Shown here in pieces: positions 44,445-56,024 of a DNA stretch of 56,024 nt. The position numbers and the translations under genes are program-made. The notes below the pieces were generated by a model. It saw nothing but the letters and a program-made list of their open reading frames with translations, ran no database searches and was not told the origin of the DNA. Source of the stretch: an uncultured Woeseiaceae bacterium (GTDB taxonomy: Bacteria > Pseudomonadota > Gammaproteobacteria > Steroidobacterales > Woeseiaceae); contig CABXJW010000005.1 of the NCBI GenBank assembly GCA_902512585.1, positions 1 to 56,024 on the forward strand, read 5' to 3'. Position 1 is the stretch's first letter; every line of letters starts with the position of its first letter.

Positions 44445-44687
44445 TATATTTCTCAGAAAATTCCTATTTATCGTGTGTCTATTGTAACGGTTTATCCGCA
44501 ATCATTTCAGTAAAAAGAGTGCTTAAAGAGTAAATACACATTTTTACAAACAGATATAATTACCTGAAATATATAATAATTACGTTAGAAACTATATACC
44601 AAACATATCACACAGAACTGCAATTTCGTGTGAGGTGAGTTACAGTAAGAGTGATTTTTGAGTGTTTTGCAATTGCGGGAATCTTCA

Positions 44688-46157
44688 ATGGCGCGAAAAA
44701 CAAAAGAATTAAAACGCGACACCATCGCGATTTTTCAAGACTGGAATCTCAGTAGGAACAAACTACTGCAATATTTATCATACCCATTAATTCTAAGTAT
44801 TGTAGGCACCTGCTCAACGCCTCCTCATCTATTAGATCAGGTTCTAGAACAAGGTGAGCTCCATGTTATCACCCTAAACAGTCCAACTACATTTTATCAA
44901 GATGATGATGAGATGGCGGGTCCAGAATATGATTTAGTTTCCGGTCTAGCCGATAGCTTAGGTGTCGAGCTGGTCATTAAAATAGTGGATAACATCAGTG
45001 ATATCCAACCTGCCCTAGAAGCTGGCCAAGGCCATCTAGCAGCGGCGGGATTAACCCCGACAAAGAGCTGGCAAAATGTGATGAATTTCAGTTATCCCTA
45101 TGCCAACGTCGATACTCATCTCATCTATAAACGCGGCACTATTAAACCGCAATCCATAGCAGAGGTCTTAGGTCGTGCTATCGAAATTTCTTCAGAGAGT
45201 GATCATAATGAAATGCTCACAGCACTTAAGATAAAGTATCCAGAGTTAACATGGTCAATGAATAAAAAAGGTGAGGCGCATGATCTATTAAGCAAGGTCA
45301 ATCGCGAGGAAGTGGATTTCACCATTGCCGATAGTAATGAATTTGCCCTCCAACGTCATACTCAGCCTGAACTCAGAGTGGCTCTGAATCTCAAGAAAAA
45401 TAATGCCTTAGCGTGGGCTTTTCGAAAGACTGATTCACGACGTTTATTGGAATATGCTGATAATTACTTACTGGAGGCTGAGCGTGAAGGAATGATCGCC
45501 CAGATTAATGAGCGATATTATGGGCATGCAGGAGCACTTGATTATGTTGATACCAGAACCTTTATCGAGCATATTGAAACGCGATTACCACAGTTTCGTG
45601 AAATGTTCGAAGAGGCAGGCAAAAACAATAACGTAGACTGGCGACTCTTGGCGGCCATCGGTTATCAGGAATCACACTGGCAACCACGTGCCATCTCCAG
45701 TACTGGAGTAAGAGGTCTGATGATGCTGACCCGGACCACGGCCAGTGAGTTGAATATCAAGAATCGACTGGATCCCGCCAACAGTATTCGTGGTGGGGCA
45801 GAATATTATAGGAAGCAATGGAAGCGACTGCCTGAAACAGTGCGTGAACCAGATCGAAGTTGGTTTGCCTTGGCAGCTTACAATGTGGGTTTTAATCACC
45901 TCAAAGATGCTTGGCAAATCACTCAATGGCAAGGAAATGATCCCACCCAGTGGGCGAATGTCAGTAAATCCCTACCTTTATTAGCAAATAAACTTTGGTA
46001 CCCACATTTAAGTCATGGTTATGCTCGCGGCTGGGAGCCAGTAATTTATGTAAATAATATCCGCAGTTATTACGACATCATGACCGCACTCATTGAAAAA
46101 GAGCCCCTACCGCAAATGGTCCACAATACCCCAATCAATATTAGCGACGCGCCTTAA
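44688..46157 (+). CDS. mltF: Membrane-bound lytic murein transglycosylase F (ATG at 44688 preferred over the TTG ORF start at 44658)
   Basis: Periplasmic solute-binding-like N-terminal domain plus SLT domain: AAIGYQESHWQPRAISSTGVRGLMMLT. Confidence 0.92.
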   Translation: MARKTKELKRDTIAIFQDWNLSRNKLLQYLSYPLILSIVGTCSTPPHLLDQVLEQGELHVITLNSPTTFYQDDDEMAGPEYDLVSGLADSLGVELVIKIVDNISDIQPALEAGQGHLAAAGLTPTKSWQNVMNFSYPYANVDTHLIYKRGTIKPQSIAEVLGRAIEISSESDHNEMLTALKIKYPELTWSMNKKGEAHDLLSKVNREEVDFTIADSNEFALQRHTQPELRVALNLKKNNALAWAFRKTDSRRLLEYADNYLLEAEREGMIAQINERYYGHAGALDYVDTRTFIEHIETRLPQFREMFEEAGKNNNVDWRLLAAIGYQESHWQPRAISSTGVRGLMMLTRTTASELNIKNRLDPANSIRGGAEYYRKQWKRLPETVREPDRSWFALAAYNVGFNHLKDAWQITQWQGNDPTQWANVSKSLPLLANKLWYPHLSHGYARGWEPVIYVNNIRSYYDIMTALIEKEPLPQMVHNTPINISDAP

Positions 46158-46599
46158 AAAAAGTTTGCAATAAGGTGGCACTCTCGGCAGCGAACAACCC
46201 GCCAGCAACACTAAAAGAATGATTTAACTTAGCGTGTGCCGATAAATCCAGCACCGATCCCACAGCCCCAGATTTAGGGTCACTAGCGCCATAAATACAA
46301 CGCTGAATGCGTGCTTGAATCATAGCCCCCACACACATAGCGCAGGGTTCAAGTGTGATATAGATGGTTGTATCTAGCAGACGATGATTACCCTGATGCT
46401 GCGCTGCTTGGCGTAACACTAAGATTTCAGCATGCGCGGTCGGATCCTGATTTAATATGGTTCGATTATGCGCGGCGGCGAGCTTTTGATCAGCGGCTAT
46501 GATCACGGCTCCAACAGGAACTTCACCAGCGATAGCAGCTTGCTCTGCTTGGGCTAAAGCAAGTTGCATCCAGTGCTGATCTTGCGCGGTAAAGCCCAC
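46141..46599 (-). CDS. tadA: tRNA-specific adenosine deaminase
   Basis: VPVGAVI, DPTAHAEILVLRQA, TLEPCAMCVGAMI. Confidence 0.95.
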   Translation of the reverse strand: MGFTAQDQHWMQLALAQAEQAAIAGEVPVGAVIIAADQKLAAAHNRTILNQDPTAHAEILVLRQAAQHQGNHRLLDTTIYITLEPCAMCVGAMIQARIQRCIYGASDPKSGAVGSVLDLSAHAKLNHSFSVAGGLFAAESATLLQTFFKARR

Positions 46600-46610
46600 T
46601 AAATTATCAA

Positions 46611-47354
46611 TTAGAGCGGAGTATCTGAATCGGAGCCTTGAATTTGCTCGGCGTGTTTTACCTGAGCGTCACGTGACATCACATCAACGATGATCCCGAT
46701 GACCATATTGAATAGAATAAACCCATTTAAAATTAAGAAGCTCACAAAATAAACCCACATGTACGGATACACTTCCAATACATCACCCATCACCGCAGCC
46801 CAATCATCATATGTAATTAATTGTAATAGGACGAGCATGGCGCTGCCGACATTACCCCAGCGATTCGGGTCAATGTCATTAAACAACATGGAGCCGATGG
46901 TGGCCCAAATATAAAAGAAGATAAACATCAAAAGCACCACAAAACCCACTCGTGGAATGGTCTTCACCAAGCCATCAATAATACGGCGGAACTCAGGAAC
47001 AATGGTAATAACTCGCAGTATTCTGACGATCCTTAAAAGCCGTGCTACGAAAACAGTTTCAGCGCCACCTACTGGAATCAGACTGACCGCGACAATAATA
47101 AAATCAAAGACATTCCAGCCACTTTTGAAGAAATTATAAAATGGCTTTTCTGACATCAAACGAATTAAAATCTCAATTGAGAAAAAGATAGTGATGGCAT
47201 AATCCACGAAATTAAGGGTAGCCTCATAGTCATCTGGAAGATCGTAGGTGGTCACCCCTGCATAAAAAGCTGAAGCTAATATGACCGCAATCACAATCGT
47301 GTTAAAGGCACGACTATTTCTTATGGCTAAGAAAAAATCTACAAAACTATTCAC
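46611..47354 (-). CDS. Voltage-gated-type single-domain ion channel (bacterial Nav/Cav superfamily), GTG start
   Basis: Six-TM pattern; S4 ARLLRIVRILRVITIVPEFRRI with Arg every third residue; pore LQLITYDDWAAVM; S6 FILFNMVIGIIVDVM; AAGGAG at 47361-47366 upstream of GTG. Confidence 0.92.
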   Translation of the reverse strand: MNSFVDFFLAIRNSRAFNTIVIAVILASAFYAGVTTYDLPDDYEATLNFVDYAITIFFSIEILIRLMSEKPFYNFFKSGWNVFDFIIVAVSLIPVGGAETVFVARLLRIVRILRVITIVPEFRRIIDGLVKTIPRVGFVVLLMFIFFYIWATIGSMLFNDIDPNRWGNVGSAMLVLLQLITYDDWAAVMGDVLEVYPYMWVYFVSFLILNGFILFNMVIGIIVDVMSRDAQVKHAEQIQGSDSDTPL

Positions 47355-47414
47355 ACTAATCTCCTTAATTCGTTCACTAAATTATACTGAAGTTTTGGTA
47401 TTAATAAAATCTGA

Positions 47415-50400
47415 TTAATCCAGTAGATAAATTCCTTCAGCGATATAAAAATCATTCGCCCCTGCATCACTGGTACTGCCATTCTTATGTAAGCTAACAT
47501 TAATCCGCCCACCGGTTTCATCCACAGTGTCACCACCATAGAGAGCCCCCGCAATCGCCGCACCACCCGACCAACCATTTTGAATACTGGTAGTTGAAGT
47601 GCCCGTGTAAGTATTGGCATTATTACTGTTAAGACTGACATTGAATGAGGTAAAACCGGCGTTACTTACAATCGGATTCTTATCATCGAAATTAGTCACT
47701 GCCATGGTGCCGGTATAGGCGCTCGAACCCCAATTAAAAGTCGCGGCTACATCTGCGGTGGTGGTGTATTTATGCACATCATAATTAGTGCCTGTTTGGT
47801 TATGCCGATATGCGGCTTTGACGATGGCTGCTCCACTCATGCTAGCCGAACCCGAGGTTGGAATTTCGTTGGCCGCTACTAACTCCCCTGCAACCCAGGT
47901 GCCTAGATGCACTGCCCCAGTCTGAGTCCCAGAATTGGGTGAGACATCCACCGCCCCCATCGCCCAAAAACCCCAAGTCGCATACTCAGCATTTGGCATC
48001 GGATCATTACCATTAGTATGGAATAAATCTGAGTCTTCTTTATCCAGAGTGTCATAACTGACCATCACACCCGCCATGTTGCTTGCGCCTCCCGAGGAGC
48101 CATCTATCTGTGCCCCATCATCCTTAAGTTCAGCGGCAAATATTTCATTAGAGATGTAGGCAGATTTAGCTGCGCTATTATCGGTATCCCCAAAGTTTAA
48201 GACCAGCTCGCCCGTATCCACCGTGTCCCAAGTATTGGTGTAATTATTGCTGGGTAGCGTTGAGACTGACAGCGGCGCTGCCACCTGAACATCGTCGTTG
48301 GTGGCGTCGAAATTAATCGAGGCGAGCGTGCTGCCCGATCTGACAGAGGCGAGCTGGTCGTTACCGGTTCCAGAACTATTAAACTCCATAATTCCAGTAA
48401 AAAATCCGTTATAAGTTGTGGCGGTAGAACTATAAAAATCGGAATGCCTAAAATCAGAGATAGATTTATAATCTTGGTTGGCGTCTGAGGCATTTGTGCC
48501 TTCTTGAGTATTATTGGTATTAGAATTAGTGTAATTGCCTAGATTATTTGTTAAACCAACGTAATTTAACGCTTGCTGATAAGTAGCATTATAAGCAAAT
48601 CCATCATCTATTGCCTGAATATCATCCCCAGAATACATCAAGAATACTGCTGTAGATTTTGAAGACTCTGAGTCATTTAACTGGAAGTTATTGTGTGTGG
48701 TTGTACTATCATAGTCCCTGTATGACTCACCAATTTTATAATCGTTCACCCATTGCACTGGATTGCGAATAAACATACTGATCTCGGTATCATCGGGTGT
48801 CTCATTATCCATTAACGTTGTGGCAGTAAATGTATACACACGGCCATCCAAATCAGATTCTGTGGTACGTTTGGCACCAACAAACATTTGTCCTCCATCA
48901 CCATTACTTGAAATTCCGTAATTCGGAGCAATCCACGATCCAGGCACATCGGAGACCGCGCCTGTGGTCAAGTTGACTTGTTTGATGCGAAAACGAGAAA
49001 AATATTGGGTGGTACTGCCACTGGAAACACCGGTGGTACCGCCATCATAATCCACATAAAACCCGTAATCGGTGCCGTTACTGAGAGTGTCTGAACCGGT
49101 AAACTGCAGGCGATTGTAGGCATTACCATACTGGAAGATCAGTTTATCGTCAGCGGTGACACCCAGATGAATTCCACCAATTGAGTTACCTGAGTTCCAG
49201 CCGGTAGAGCGACCAAAAAAAGTACCTTCCGATGGCGTTGAATCAACCCTGACCACACCACCAAAAGCCCAAGGTTCTCCTGACTTATAGAGCGGTTGTA
49301 CAGCACCGTTAGATTGAAAAAAATCATTATAGCCATCAAATTCAGCCCAATTCCCTGTGTAGGGGAGATTATCATTGATTAGCGAGGCAGAACTAGTAGT
49401 ACGAAACTCGCCGCTGATGGCCATTTGGTTGAAGGTATCGGTGTTCCATGTGTCACTGTTGGTGTTGTATTTAACCCCAACACTCATGGGTCCATTTTTG
49501 TATGGATCGGAAGTGGTCACCATCATACCGATGGGTCGGTCGTCACTGGCACTGTCCTCCGCAATTAAGCATCCGCGGTCTGAACTAGAAGCACACTCAA
49601 TGGGCGAGACACCCAGTTGCACACCCAAGCCGTCATTGGTCTGGTTGGTGCGTTTTTGGTAAGACCAGTAATGCGAACCGTCAATGTATTGCCCCGTATC
49701 GCCAGCCGAATACTTGGTGGTGTCGTTACTGCGTTTGTCCATGGTGTTGATCATGACACCCAGATAACTTTGCTGGTCATCACGGGTAGTGGAACCGCCG
49801 GCACCGTCATAGGAATCCTGAATCGAAAGTTGCGCCTGTAGACCGACACCCTTGCCAGCGGGGTTCATGACCTGATACCACTGAGAGGTGCCCTCGGGCA
49901 TTTCACTGGTAGCACCAAAACGCGCCGTATCGATATTTTGACTGGGATCGAGCGCTTGTTCGGCCCAGTCGTAATGATTGGCGTAGGTGTTACACGCACT
50001 GCTGTTGTTGCCCACCGCGGCACAGTAATCCGGTGCCAGAGTTTTGAAATCCATACTGGAACTGGAATAAAAGCCCGACGAGAAAAAGCTTGGATAGAAG
50101 AAATCCGCACTGGTACCAAAACCCAAATGATTTTCAATCGGCATCACGTTTAAGGCAATGACCCGTTTATTATTATTTGTGAAACTGGTATACATAGCAT
50201 CGGTGTAGACGTCCCCGGTCAATACCACTTGATCGAGATAACTGTGATAAGCCGTACCAATATAGGAATTCGTGCTTCCCATCTGATTAAGTATCCACTG
50301 AGCTATGGTTTCATTATCACTTTTATTCCAATAACTACTCGTACCAAATATTCCATTCACATCAGCATGTGAGAAGAAATCGGCATGGACTCCAGATTCG

Positions 50401-53400
50401 AATTCCTCTGCTGGTATGAAAACTGCACCATATAAATTTGCGTCTGCGTCGTCCTCGGCTTTATTAAACAACATTTGACCGATATTTTGTGTGCCCGCCA
50501 GATTTGTAACAGATTGCAACCGAGGGCCCATTCCACTGGGCTCGTATATAAGCCCATTTAAACCGAAGTACCTTGAATCGGAGGAAAATGTGCCAGCCTC
50601 CACAACTCCACCTTTAGTACCGGGCCCCCCAGGGGGCCAATCAGCATCTTTATTACCAGTGACGCTGATTTTTGCATCAATCGTAGACAATAATGAATTG
50701 GTGCTCATCGTTGCTGTTGCATTACCGTGCCCACCCCCATAACCGCCACAACATCGTTCACCGTGAATATTCACAAATAGCAGACTGTCCGACTCTTTCA
50801 TCCAGTTTTCAAATAGAGTTTTTGTGGCAGAGGATTCTTCTGAAGATCTACCACTTTGAATGGCCTGGTTAAATATGACGTGATACTCGGATAATTGAGA
50901 CTGTGAAAGACTTTTAAAATTGTTATTAGTAATTTGATACCCTTGCCCAGTATTGTTACCCCAAGCTTGTAAATCTAAGACCACCATACCTGAACCACCA
51001 TAACTAAGGTTTAATATTTTTACCGTATCGGGCAGTTCCGTTCCCTGTTGTGCACTGTAATTGATTGTTTCTGCATCTTTATCTAGGGTCATCCAAAATA
51101 GTTTGCTGTCAAAGCGACCCGCCGAAAGCACCTCACTTTGTGCGATGTTCGAGACCACTTCGCTTTGCGCATCCACAGTTTTGTAATGGCCATCGAGTGA
51201 GGCTCGTCCTGGGGAGAATTGAAATTGCCCCAATCCTGATTCCACACCAATCGGATAAAAATAACGAAAATCCAAATTGTCTACCGTCACACTTTCGTAT
51301 CCGTCGCCACTCACAATTGAGACCGGTGTGTAGACATTGTCGCTGCCAATGTTGTCGAAATCGGCGAGCGTTTTATTGGTGGCTGTGGATTGTGCGGTGG
51401 TAATGATTTGTTCTTGCTGATAAGCGCCTAAGTTGGTGCCAGAAGGACCGCCACCCCGTGTTCCAGTGGCACTGAACCCCGTTCTTGAGACGTTGGTGAC
51501 TGCGGCCGAATAACGCAAGGTGTTGGATTGTAATTCCTCTATATTTTTAACCGGTACCGTGATCGCGCTGGTCACAGTGTCACCTGAAGATTGTGCGGTA
51601 GCGGTCAAGGTTAAATTATAAGATTTAGCTTCCTCAAAATCCAAGGTAGTATTATTGGTAATAGCACCCGAGCTTGCATTTACAGTAAACTTATCACTGC
51701 CCGTACCACTGAGTGTGTAGACAAGTGCTTCACTTTCACCATTGGTAATTGAAGATACTGTGGCCACCGAGGTGTTGGTGCCATTGGATTCCACAAATGG
51801 AGTATTTTGTATGGCAGTCACTAAGTTTTCTAATTGTGCATCAGTCACCGATATTGCCAGTGCACTCGAGACACTGTTCGTTCCATCAGTGACATTCACG
51901 ATAACGTTATAACTGGTCTTGGTTTCATAATCGAGGGTACTGGCAATGGTCACAGTGCCATTACTCGCGATCGAGAATTTCGCGGCATCCGTCCCAGAGA
52001 GTGAATAAGTAACCGTCCCAGATTCTGGATCACTGCTTGAGGATGTGGCCACAGTGGTCCCCACCGCTGAACTCTCAATAAAATTAGTCGCTGCCAAGCT
52101 ACTGTTGAGCGTGGGAGGCTCATTCACATCGGCAATACTTAAAGTCATACTTTTAGATTCAGTGATACCATCCACGGTGGCAATAACGTTGATGCTATAA
52201 CTGGTCTTAGTTTCATAATCCAATAAAGCGGCAAGTTTCACATTCCCGTTACTATCGATGCTGAATTTAGCACTGTCCGTTCCGGATAATGAGTAACTGA
52301 TAGTGCCATTCTCAGGATCATTCACCGTTGAGCTCGCCACCACGGTATCCACCGTGGCCGCCTCAGTAATAGTATTCGAGATACTCACATTAACACTGTG
52401 CGCTTCATTGACATCGGTTAGGGAGATAGCATGGGTAGAGATGGTATTATTGGTACCATCACTAGCATTAACAGTGATGTTGTAACTGTTTTTGGTTTCA
52501 TAATCTAGTGCACTGGCAATAGTCACCACCCCATTACTGTCGATTGAGAATTTCGCGGCATCCGTCCCAGAGAGAGAGTAACTAATAATTTCAGATTCTG
52601 GGTCGCTGGCAGAAGCAGTCACCACAGTCGTTCCCACGGCTGAAGTTTCAGCGAAATTAACCGCCGCGAGGTTACTCGTGAGCATGGGCGCTTCATTTAT
52701 ATTAGCTATATTTATCGAGAGAGGTGCTGAAACAGTTAGACCATCCACGGTAGTGTCTACACTAATTTCATAATCAGCTTTATCTTCATAATCGAGTAAA
52801 GTAGCAAGTTTAATATTACCATTTTCATCAATACTGAATTGAGCACTGTCTGTTCCTGAAAGGGCATAATTAATAGTGCCACCCTCAGGATCAATGACAG
52901 CCGTGGTCGCCACTATTGTATCCACAGTTGAGGTCTCTTCGATGGTTGTATCGGCTAACACAACATTCACACTGTGCGCTTCATTCACATCCGTCAGCGT
53001 AATCGCTGTGGCAGTTGAGGTGCTCAGAGTTCCATCAGAGGCAGTGATAATTAAACTGTAATTGTTCTTGGTTTCATAATCTAAAACACTGTTGAGTGTG
53101 ACAGTACCATCATTGGCAATCGAAAATTTGTCACTGCCCTCACCAGAGAGCGAGTAATTTACAGTGGCTGCTTCTGGGTCAACTGCAGAGGCATTGATTA
53201 CTGTGGTTCCAATAGCCAAATTTTCAGCAAAATTAGTCGCGGCCAAAGTACTCAATAACTCAGGAGCTTCATTAAGGTTATTTACTGCGATACTGATTGG
53301 CACCGTAACAATGTCATTATTTTCTTTGGTATAAACAATCGTGAGATCAAATTGTCGTTCACTCTCATAATTCGCATTACCATTATAAATTAATTCATTA

Positions 53401-54830
53401 CTTTCCTGATCATAACTGAATAACTCACTGCCGATGCCAGTGAGTTGCACTGTATAAGCAACCTCAGCAGGGTTATCTAGAGCAACACTGGCAACAGTAG
53501 TGGTGAGGCTATTCTCATCAACACTCAGAATGTTCTGCGTTAACAATGTCTCAAATACTTGAATAACTTCAACGGTGTTGGTTGCTTTACGTTCTGCTGT
53601 AGATTCTGAGGCAACTTGAGTGGTTTCTTGTGCCACCTCCTGCGTCTCGACCTCGCCTGTTTCTACTTCAACCTCAACATTAATCTCACCCGCAAAATCA
53701 TCGGCAACTGAGAGGGTGTCTGGGGCAGCTTGAGATGAATTATCTGAAATACCAGAGGAATCTAATGTACCTTCATTTACTTGTGGCTGTGACTCAGTCT
53801 GAGTACCCGCATCAGCTTGCATCTCAGTCTCACTACTAGATACAGACTCAGTTTCAGTTTCAGTTTCAGTTTCAGTTTCAGTTTCAGTTTCAGCAGAACT
53901 CTCTGTACCAGCATCCTCAGTGGAGCTAGCTTCTTCATTACTTTCCTCTGACTCAGTTTCATCACTCGCTTGAGTGTCAGATTCCTCGCTATTTTCAGCT
54001 TCAGATTCTTCACTCTCAGCTTCTTCCGAACTTTCTTCTTCTGTTTCTTCGTTATTATCTTCGGATTCTTCACTTTCTGCTTCTTCCTCTGACTCTCCTT
54101 CTTCAGATTCTTCTTCTGACTCTTCTTCTGATTCCTCACCCTCTTCTTCAGATTCACTTTCTGTTTCTTCTTCCTCCTCCTCATTAGCAACTAGATTTGC
54201 TTGAAAGGCATTCAACATCTCAGTGGTGAGGGCTTGTGGCAAGTCAATCTCATCGGTCGGATCTTCCACCACTACCACGAAACCATTTTCTGTTAATACG
54301 ATATCCCCATCGGCATTTTGGGTTGGGATAACTCGCATCTCCTCCCCATATATAAAAGCTGCTGTGGTGCGTTGATTGGCGCTATCTACAATAGTAATAC
54401 CACCACGAATACCAACCGTGGCAGAGTTGGTCTTAATAATGGCGGGTTTCTTTTTGGTTACTTTACCGCCCACTAATCTTAATAACCCGCGACTGGTGAC
54501 CTCGAGTGAGCCTTCGGCTGTTTCTGGATTGTAAATAAACCGATCGAGAGTGACGCTGGAATTCGGGCCAATCGTAAAGGCCGTTCCATCGATTAATAAC
54601 ATTTGAGCTTTACCTGCACCGTCGGTTTGGAGGGTATGATTCTGAATAATCTTATAACCCGCTTCGACCAGTTTACGCTCTTCTTCTAAAGTAAGATCTG
54701 TCGTATTTTGGTTGACCGCAGCAGCTACACCGATTCGATCCTGCGCCACCACGGGCTGCATTAGCAGCCACATAAATGCACAGCAGATACCAGTTTTTCC
54801 CAGTAAATGAATATAAGATTCTTTTGTCAT
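47415..54830 (-). CDS. Giant secreted FecR-domain / cadherin-like repeat protein with C-terminal TbpB-like beta-barrel
   Basis: 2471 aa; hydrophobic signal-like N-terminus ending PVVAQ; FecR-type segment; acidic low-complexity linker; repeated SLSGTDxxKFSIDSNGxVxxxxxLDYETKxxY cadherin-like units. Confidence 0.88.
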   Translation of the reverse strand: MTKESYIHLLGKTGICCAFMWLLMQPVVAQDRIGVAAAVNQNTTDLTLEEERKLVEAGYKIIQNHTLQTDGAGKAQMLLIDGTAFTIGPNSSVTLDRFIYNPETAEGSLEVTSRGLLRLVGGKVTKKKPAIIKTNSATVGIRGGITIVDSANQRTTAAFIYGEEMRVIPTQNADGDIVLTENGFVVVVEDPTDEIDLPQALTTEMLNAFQANLVANEEEEEETESESEEEGEESEEESEEESEEGESEEEAESEESEDNNEETEEESSEEAESEESEAENSEESDTQASDETESEESNEEASSTEDAGTESSAETETETETETETETESVSSSETEMQADAGTQTESQPQVNEGTLDSSGISDNSSQAAPDTLSVADDFAGEINVEVEVETGEVETQEVAQETTQVASESTAERKATNTVEVIQVFETLLTQNILSVDENSLTTTVASVALDNPAEVAYTVQLTGIGSELFSYDQESNELIYNGNANYESERQFDLTIVYTKENNDIVTVPISIAVNNLNEAPELLSTLAATNFAENLAIGTTVINASAVDPEAATVNYSLSGEGSDKFSIANDGTVTLNSVLDYETKNNYSLIITASDGTLSTSTATAITLTDVNEAHSVNVVLADTTIEETSTVDTIVATTAVIDPEGGTINYALSGTDSAQFSIDENGNIKLATLLDYEDKADYEISVDTTVDGLTVSAPLSINIANINEAPMLTSNLAAVNFAETSAVGTTVVTASASDPESEIISYSLSGTDAAKFSIDSNGVVTIASALDYETKNSYNITVNASDGTNNTISTHAISLTDVNEAHSVNVSISNTITEAATVDTVVASSTVNDPENGTISYSLSGTDSAKFSIDSNGNVKLAALLDYETKTSYSINVIATVDGITESKSMTLSIADVNEPPTLNSSLAATNFIESSAVGTTVATSSSSDPESGTVTYSLSGTDAAKFSIASNGTVTIASTLDYETKTSYNVIVNVTDGTNSVSSALAISVTDAQLENLVTAIQNTPFVESNGTNTSVATVSSITNGESEALVYTLSGTGSDKFTVNASSGAITNNTTLDFEEAKSYNLTLTATAQSSGDTVTSAITVPVKNIEELQSNTLRYSAAVTNVSRTGFSATGTRGGGPSGTNLGAYQQEQIITTAQSTATNKTLADFDNIGSDNVYTPVSIVSGDGYESVTVDNLDFRYFYPIGVESGLGQFQFSPGRASLDGHYKTVDAQSEVVSNIAQSEVLSAGRFDSKLFWMTLDKDAETINYSAQQGTELPDTVKILNLSYGGSGMVVLDLQAWGNNTGQGYQITNNNFKSLSQSQLSEYHVIFNQAIQSGRSSEESSATKTLFENWMKESDSLLFVNIHGERCCGGYGGGHGNATATMSTNSLLSTIDAKISVTGNKDADWPPGGPGTKGGVVEAGTFSSDSRYFGLNGLIYEPSGMGPRLQSVTNLAGTQNIGQMLFNKAEDDADANLYGAVFIPAEEFESGVHADFFSHADVNGIFGTSSYWNKSDNETIAQWILNQMGSTNSYIGTAYHSYLDQVVLTGDVYTDAMYTSFTNNNKRVIALNVMPIENHLGFGTSADFFYPSFFSSGFYSSSSMDFKTLAPDYCAAVGNNSSACNTYANHYDWAEQALDPSQNIDTARFGATSEMPEGTSQWYQVMNPAGKGVGLQAQLSIQDSYDGAGGSTTRDDQQSYLGVMINTMDKRSNDTTKYSAGDTGQYIDGSHYWSYQKRTNQTNDGLGVQLGVSPIECASSSDRGCLIAEDSASDDRPIGMMVTTSDPYKNGPMSVGVKYNTNSDTWNTDTFNQMAISGEFRTTSSASLINDNLPYTGNWAEFDGYNDFFQSNGAVQPLYKSGEPWAFGGVVRVDSTPSEGTFFGRSTGWNSGNSIGGIHLGVTADDKLIFQYGNAYNRLQFTGSDTLSNGTDYGFYVDYDGGTTGVSSGSTTQYFSRFRIKQVNLTTGAVSDVPGSWIAPNYGISSNGDGGQMFVGAKRTTESDLDGRVYTFTATTLMDNETPDDTEISMFIRNPVQWVNDYKIGESYRDYDSTTTHNNFQLNDSESSKSTAVFLMYSGDDIQAIDDGFAYNATYQQALNYVGLTNNLGNYTNSNTNNTQEGTNASDANQDYKSISDFRHSDFYSSTATTYNGFFTGIMEFNSSGTGNDQLASVRSGSTLASINFDATNDDVQVAAPLSVSTLPSNNYTNTWDTVDTGELVLNFGDTDNSAAKSAYISNEIFAAELKDDGAQIDGSSGGASNMAGVMVSYDTLDKEDSDLFHTNGNDPMPNAEYATWGFWAMGAVDVSPNSGTQTGAVHLGTWVAGELVAANEIPTSGSASMSGAAIVKAAYRHNQTGTNYDVHKYTTTADVAATFNWGSSAYTGTMAVTNFDDKNPIVSNAGFTSFNVSLNSNNANTYTGTSTTSIQNGWSGGAAIAGALYGGDTVDETGGRINVSLHKNGSTSDAGANDFYIAEGIYLLD
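51838..53273 (-). repeat. Five tandem cadherin-like domain repeats of about 285-288 bp in alternating A-B-A-B-A order
   Basis: Unit boundaries (NEAP/NEAH/NEPP) at 53273, 52985, 52697, 52409, 52124; A and B types distinguishable by N-terminal strand sequences. Confidence 0.88.
53851..53892. repeat. Perfect hexanucleotide tandem repeat (GTTTCA)x7, in-frame, encoding Glu-Thr repeats on the minus strand
   Basis: Seven consecutive GTTTCA copies read directly; translated TETETETETETE. Confidence 0.95.
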
Positions 54831-54883
54831 ATGGTCAGTACTACCCTAAACTTATTGCAGTCACTCCAAGAGCCCCCTCTTTA

Positions 54884-54901
54884 AGTAAATTGCAATTTAC
54901 T
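54884..54901. promoter_or_regulatory. Perfect 18-bp palindrome AGTAAATTGCAATTTACT, candidate operator
   Basis: Sequence equals its own reverse complement; lies about 54-71 bp upstream of the giant ORF start. Confidence 0.6.
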
Positions 54902-54963
54902 CACTTATAATTACACCGTTGATTATTATCCTATCAACTAAGCCAAATCAGTTAGGTTTATGA

Positions 54964-55030
54964 TGACATTCTATTGACATTTAATGACACATATGACATT
55001 TTAAGACAATTAAATGACATATAACGACAA
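54964..55030. promoter_or_regulatory. Iterated GACA-core array (7 copies at 9-11 bp spacing), candidate transcription-factor binding array
   Basis: GACA cores at 54965, 54976, 54986, 54995, 55005, 55016, 55026. Confidence 0.6.
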
Positions 55031-55087
55031 TTTTTGTGATTTTTAACTAAAATAATATTAAACAGCTCAATAAGGTAAGAAATAATA

Positions 55088-55501
55088 ATGCTTCAAGGCC
55101 ATTGTGAATGCCAAAAAATCTGCTTCAAAGTTAGCGGCGAAATAAATCAATTGTCGCACTGTCATTGCTCTCAATGTCGCCGACTGCATGGTGCTGCTTA
55201 TGGCAGCTATGCTCGTGTTATGAAATCAGAATTTCAATATTTAACTGGCAGTAATGAAGTTAAGCAATATGCATCTTCAACCGGATCAACTCGTATTTTT
55301 TGCCATCATTGTGGTTCGAATATTATGGTTATTGTGGCGGCTGAACCAACGGTTTTATATGTGGCTATGGGGGTCATCAATGGTAATCCCATTCTTCCTA
55401 GCGATTGTCATCATATTTATGTTAATTCAAAAGCCAATTGGCATTCTATCACTGATGATTTACCCCAATACGATGAAGATACAGTAGAGGTCAAATCGTG
55501 A
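55088..55501 (+). CDS. GFA (glutathione-dependent formaldehyde-activating)/CENP-V family protein
   Basis: GHCECQKICF, SHCHCSQCRRLHG, FCHHCGSNI zinc-binding Cys pattern. Confidence 0.92.
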   Translation: MLQGHCECQKICFKVSGEINQLSHCHCSQCRRLHGAAYGSYARVMKSEFQYLTGSNEVKQYASSTGSTRIFCHHCGSNIMVIVAAEPTVLYVAMGVINGNPILPSDCHHIYVNSKANWHSITDDLPQYDEDTVEVKS

Positions 55502-56024
55502 TTCAATTGCGAAAAATGGCTATGTTTGGATTTCCAGAGATAGCGCGTGAACTTGGTGCAGATCCGGCTCAAATTCTCAATAATCATGGTTTACCTGCTG
55601 ATTACTTCAATGCTATTGAGGTCGATGATGTAATGACAATGCAAGACGCTGAAAAACTCATGAAAACTCTTGCTGATAAAACCAGAGCGCATCATTGTGG
55701 GGCATTAATGGGAAGTCGACAAGATATCAGCTTCCTGGGTATTGTTGGTTACATCATGCAACAATCGAACACAGTGCGTCTGGCACTGGATGCTTTGCAA
55801 GAACATCTGACTTTGCACCACGACAAAGGGCAAACAGGCGTCGCTAATTATGGTGATGTCTCTGGTATGTATTGGAATAATCCATTGCCTTTTGAGTTGC
55901 AACACTACACCAATGAAGTGGCAATGGCACAAGCTGCTGTGGTTTTAAGAGCAATTATTGGTAATCGATTCAGAGCTAAAACGGTACATTTTACCCATGA
56001 AGCACCAAATAATATCGAACCTTA
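55498..56024 (+). CDS. AraC-type transcriptional regulator, N-terminal arabinose-binding-like domain; truncated by window end
   Basis: GTG start overlapping the GFA stop (GTGA); open to the window edge; reads VIQLRKMAMFGFPEIARELGADPAQILNNHGLPADYFN..., typical of the ligand-binding half of large AraC regulators; HTH not in window. Confidence 0.75.
   Translation, partial: MIQLRKMAMFGFPEIARELGADPAQILNNHGLPADYFNAIEVDDVMTMQDAEKLMKTLADKTRAHHCGALMGSRQDISFLGIVGYIMQQSNTVRLALDALQEHLTLHHDKGQTGVANYGDVSGMYWNNPLPFELQHYTNEVAMAQAAVVLRAIIGNRFRAKTVHFTHEAPNNIEP

Follow-up and report, generated by a model that had tools for sequence, protein, structure and literature searches.

A helically phased array of TGTC boxes at a giant FecR-cadherin gene is probably the operator of an adjacent AraC-family regulator

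The divergent promoter region of a giant gene in an uncultured Woeseiaceae bacterium carries seven TGTC boxes in a helically phased array, which is probably the operator of the adjacent AraC-family regulator (PF12625 + HTH_18) and, on the sequence evidence set out below, a new case of the AraC/XylS operator architecture. The array was studied in a window of 56,024 nucleotides (i.e., the whole stretch of DNA that was analyzed), and we infer that the giant gene is its main target. A candidate regulator and a testable operator are thereby assigned to an undescribed island encoding a giant surface-type protein in small-genome marine bacteria.

The array and its gene setting

The seven-box array is real and not a product of chance. 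Its GACA cores, which read TGTC on the strand facing the giant gene, lie at the box positions of Table 1 and are separated, in ascending coordinates, by 11, 10, 9, 10, 11, and 10 bp; five of them read TGACA, the fifth AGACA and the seventh CGACA, exactly as the original prediction had described. When the 257-bp intergenic region was shuffled 20,000 times with its dinucleotides preserved, the maximum number of GACA was six, reached once, and seven never occurred, while seven non-overlapping cores placed randomly in the span had all gaps within 9–11 bp in only ~1.6e-4 of placements. Within the 1.11-Mb assembly of the window genome (66% complete), the pattern GACAN5-7GACAN5-7GACA was found at the array only, and the reversed control pattern gave no match. 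A four-box pattern searched across 397 genomes of the order returned the window array and homologous arrays in two sister species, together with five further matches elsewhere, several of them plain tandem repeats; reversed controls gave four. A wider regulon in the same genome was disfavored, since TGACAN4-7TGACA outside the array was no commoner than its reversed control.

Table 1. Genes, boxes, and promoter elements around the array (window coordinates)
Feature	Position	Strand	Remarks
Giant gene, 2471 aa	47415..54830	-	Signal-like N-terminus, FecR domain, cadherin repeats
Proposed -10 of giant gene, GATAAT	54925..54930	-	38 bp below box 7; placed by conservation
Site 4 B-box, AACC	54955..54958		Degenerate
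Box 7, TGTCA	54965..54968	-	A-box of promoter-proximal site 4; 21 bp from site 3 A-box
Box 6, TGTCA	54976..54979	-	B-box of site 3; 10 bp from box 5; core invariant
Box 5, TGTCA	54986..54989	-	A-box of site 3; core invariant
Box 4, TGTCA	54995..54998	-	B-box of site 2; 10 bp from box 3; invariant
Box 3, TGTCT	55005..55008	-	A-box of site 2; core invariant in two sister species
Box 2, TGTCA	55016..55019	-	B-box of site 1; 10 bp from box 1
Box 1, TGTCG	55026..55029	-	A-box of site 1 (most distal)
GFA-family enzyme gene	55088..55501	+	Divergent from giant gene
AraC-family regulator gene	55498..56022	+	Arabinose_bd N-terminal part; runs off contig end

The start of the AraC gene overlaps the stop of the GFA gene by 4 bp (GTGA), which suggests that GFA was captured into the regulator's operon in the window species, the only one in which GFA stands, in inverted order, between array and AraC. 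A genome of the same species (G060) encodes the complete AraC protein of 333 aa, with Arabinose_bd (PF12625) and HTH_18 domains, followed downstream by genes for a CHASE2-cyclase, a TPR-barrel protein, and an ion channel with a cyclic-nucleotide-binding domain. The window also encodes a voltage-gated-channel-like protein (Ion_trans, 247 aa; 46611-47354) in the gene that immediately follows the giant gene. The giant protein itself has a very long Glu/Ser-rich acidic stretch after its FecR domain (residues ~215-400); the contig of the sister genome G005 breaks within this stretch and has ambiguous bases there, so the stretch probably breaks assemblies.

Conservation of the array and a second operator

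A survey of nine genus genomes showed the AraC gene in G005 (PBVS01000081, a public genome recorded as Woeseiaceae) and G006, with proteins 51-53% identical to that of the window species. Both have the array immediately between this gene and the giant gene, or the start of the latter in G006, whose contig ends just inside it, and GFA does not intervene. Read toward the giant gene, the TGTC boxes are spaced by 19, 10, 9, 10, and 11 bp in G005/G006 and by 10, 11, 10, 9, 10, and 11 bp in the window. The original prediction had named conservation in relatives among its checks, and the cores are indeed kept, together with a common 10-9-10-11 spacing. Across the five shared boxes of the three species, 20/20 core columns are invariant compared to 14/24 spacer columns, although the close similarity of the G005 and G006 promoters leaves few independent comparisons. 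At the proposed -10 of the giant gene, ATAATAATCA is invariant in the three species; the -10 positions were inferred from conservation by eye, and the boxes were likewise paired by eye. At E<1e-100, AraC was found only in G000, G060, G005, and G006 among 107 genomes of the family. Remoter homologues in G066 and G128 (28-29% identical) are too distant for comparison, and the upstream stretches read in these two showed no array.

The array belongs to an island comprising the channel with a cyclic-nucleotide-binding domain, the TPR-barrel protein, the CHASE2-cyclase, AraC, and the giant FecR-cadherin gene; the island was located at L063 (10680-17741), L061, L099, and positions 44658-56022 of the window. 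Genome G002 has the same flanks (mscS-like ... GFA-tadA-SLT) without the island, which thus looks variably present among genomes. We rejected a tie between the array and GFA, as the G002 GFA gene (64% identical) has no adjoining array, AraC, or giant gene, and the arrays of G005 and G006 have no GFA beside them. A tie to the giant gene alone was rejected too: SAR86 loci (L065-L077, L092) carry homologues of its FecR start, 69-73% identical or more, and no array was seen at these homologous starts. In L065, the one SAR86 locus read in detail, the giant homologue follows the TPR-barrel gene and is accompanied by CHASE2-cyclase and channel genes, while AraC is absent and a TetR gene stands in its place, i.e., a shared module under a different regulator.

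A matching set of boxes was found in the divergent promoter between the TPR-barrel and CHASE2-cyclase genes. There, four species have an NGTC-10-TGTC-11-TGTC-10-degenerate box geometry oriented toward the TPR-barrel gene: AGTC-10-TGTC-11-TGTC-10-AGCC in G060, CGTC-10-TGTC-11-TGTC-10-TGTC in G005 and G006, and AGTC-10-TGTC-11-TGTC-10-TGCC in G004, whose sequence was examined only after the geometry had been noticed in the other three. At the TPR promoters, 36 bp separate the third box from the proposed -10 (TAAAAT) below it, a distance also seen at the G005/G006 giant promoter. Relative to the proposed -10, six promoters have their boxes at -57, -47, -36, and -26, and the window giant promoter has them at -59, -49, -38, and -28. 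An alternative -10 (TATATT) lies nearer the boxes of the TPR promoter; no counterpart of it is conserved at the giant promoter. The geometry of each promoter arose in only 0-4 of 10,000 shuffles. In the four AraC-bearing assemblies, 16 of the 17 matches to a three-box pattern fell in the giant and TPR promoters, while the reversed control gave seven matches, all in G005 and G006. Conserved cores, conserved spacing, and a matching operator at a second promoter support well the cooperative occupancy of a phased operator that the original prediction had proposed.

A candidate regulator and its alternatives

When the array is read in pairs, the two boxes of a pair are always 10 bp apart and successive pairs are separated by 9 or 11 bp, which fits two helix-turn-helix motifs on adjacent turns, repeated head to tail. 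By our own count, ~1/10 orderings of these intervals would place 10 bp at every second position; pairing alone is weak evidence, and more weight falls on its return at the second promoter. Further features agree with the AraC/XylS type. Boxes ~10 bp apart in the same orientation occur in the window and in the TPR promoters of four species; the last two A-boxes are 21 bp apart in all promoters, as for sites repeated every ~21 bp; and the proximal A-box, 36-38 bp above the proposed -10, is placed as a proximal site near the -35. A protein with two helix-turn-helix motifs (PF12625 + HTH_18) is also encoded nearby, adjoining the array in G005 and G006 and behind GFA in the window species. The A and B boxes of AraC-family operators normally differ, and TGTC in both half-boxes is unusual.

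We propose that an AraC monomer would contact a pair of TGTC boxes 10 bp apart, with one of its two helix-turn-helix motifs in each box, and that monomers would line up head to tail every 19-21 bp, on three full sites and a promoter-proximal fourth whose second box is degenerate. The last strong box of the giant promoter, at ~-50 from the start site and ~36-38 bp above the -10, would occupy an XylS-like activating position. A copy of the operator with two sites would let the same protein activate the TPR-barrel gene. Autoregulation is likely as well, given that the array immediately precedes the regulator's own gene or operon.

The original prediction had favored Pho-type boxes bound by PhoB or another OmpR/PhoB-family response regulator, which might make the locus phosphate-responsive. 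The array does share with the Pho box TGTCA direct repeats, 11 bp apart in part of its length, and AT-rich spacers; 13-15 of the 18 positions in its best 18-mers agree with the Pho-box consensus, a TGTCAATAAAATGTC-like 11-bp pair is conserved at both promoters, and OmpR-family regulators exist in the genus. However, this identification is unlikely. The spacing is a mixture of 9, 10, and 11 bp in which 11-bp intervals are not the rule (2/6 in the window, 1/5 in G005/G006), and the giant promoters have in common a 10-11-10 unit and conserved 9- and 10-bp gaps rather than a strict Pho-box repeat. Pho boxes overlap the -35 (PMC2695467) and keep a strict spacing to core promoter elements (PMC10294691), whereas the boxes at the giant promoters end ~30 bp above the proposed -10. 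PhoB exceeded the curated cut-off in one of nine genus genomes (several incomplete), one that does not bear the array, and none passed the TIGR02154 cut-off in the four array-linked genomes G000, G060, G005, and G006, whose assemblies are only 52-73% complete. An operator controlling the giant gene is well supported, while its assignment to PhoB/OmpR is not; another regulator, which the original prediction had allowed for, fits better, as the boxes travel with the AraC-family gene and have AraC/XylS geometry. A resemblance to Pho boxes can mask what is probably an AraC/XylS operator, a point of relevance wherever regulons are predicted from motifs.

It is also improbable that an unlinked regulator binds the array and that AraC was merely co-inherited with it as part of one island. 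Since neither the array nor this AraC was found apart from the island, the two could be linked through co-inheritance alone, and in G004 the second operator is present while AraC was not found in the assembly (99% complete), in which the contig stops inside the cyclase gene, just before AraC's place in other species. On the other hand, the array geometry is that of an AraC/XylS operator, in G005 and G006 the AraC gene lies right beside the array, and the window AraC is still divergent behind the array despite the intervening GFA. Least probable is a non-regulatory minisatellite or slippage-made curved-DNA element, as the AT-rich composition and the near 10.3-bp period might suggest: the spacing varies from 9 to 11 bp yet is kept between species, the cores are invariant while the spacers change, and an unrelated promoter of the island shows this geometry again.

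If AraC does bind the array, three to four head-to-tail monomers might form a graded or all-or-none switch for the island, with different thresholds at the longer giant array and the two TPR sites, although we put this forward only tentatively. Such a switch would couple the giant FecR-cadherin protein, the TPR-barrel outer-membrane protein, the CHASE2 cyclase, and the cyclic-nucleotide-gated channel.

Comparison with known operators

The island AraC protein resembles the PF12625 AraC-type regulators GliR, VirS, and QhpR over its full length, with scores below the family cut-offs for the NCBIfam GliR and QhpR profiles and an E value of 4.8e-33 against the VirS structure 8rcx. GliR (PA3027), which is divergent from its target, needs one site at -35 and one upstream (PMC8151288); its motif, however, is GC-rich (YYGGCGHTDTYSGMC) and not TGTC. 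No operator for comparison was found in the VirS and OruR literature. The ARG boxes of ArgR of Pseudomonas, a regulator of the AraC/XylS family, are TGTCGCN6GNAA in tandem 5 bp apart, which gives 21 bp, with a less conserved second repeat (PMC10963909). They share with the array the TGTC core, the 21-bp tandem repeat, and the weaker second repeat, but their B part is GNAA rather than TGTC, they serve the arginine regulon, and they have two half-sites instead of about four.

A likeness in layout is seen in XylS at Pm of Pseudomonas putida, whose operator, TGCA-N6-GGNTA-N6-TGCA-N6-GGNTA, has boxes 10 bp and sites 21 bp apart (PMC4514859) and whose proximal site, just above and into the -35, serves to activate the adjacent promoter (PMC4514859, PMC5481539). 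Unlike the array, with up to four sites and nearly all boxes TGTC, XylS has two sites, in which the A box (TGCA) differs from the B box (GGNTA). The last two array sites show the same A-N6-B direct repeats with 21 bp between sites, and the proximal array site lies at the position where XylS and MtlR sites lie.
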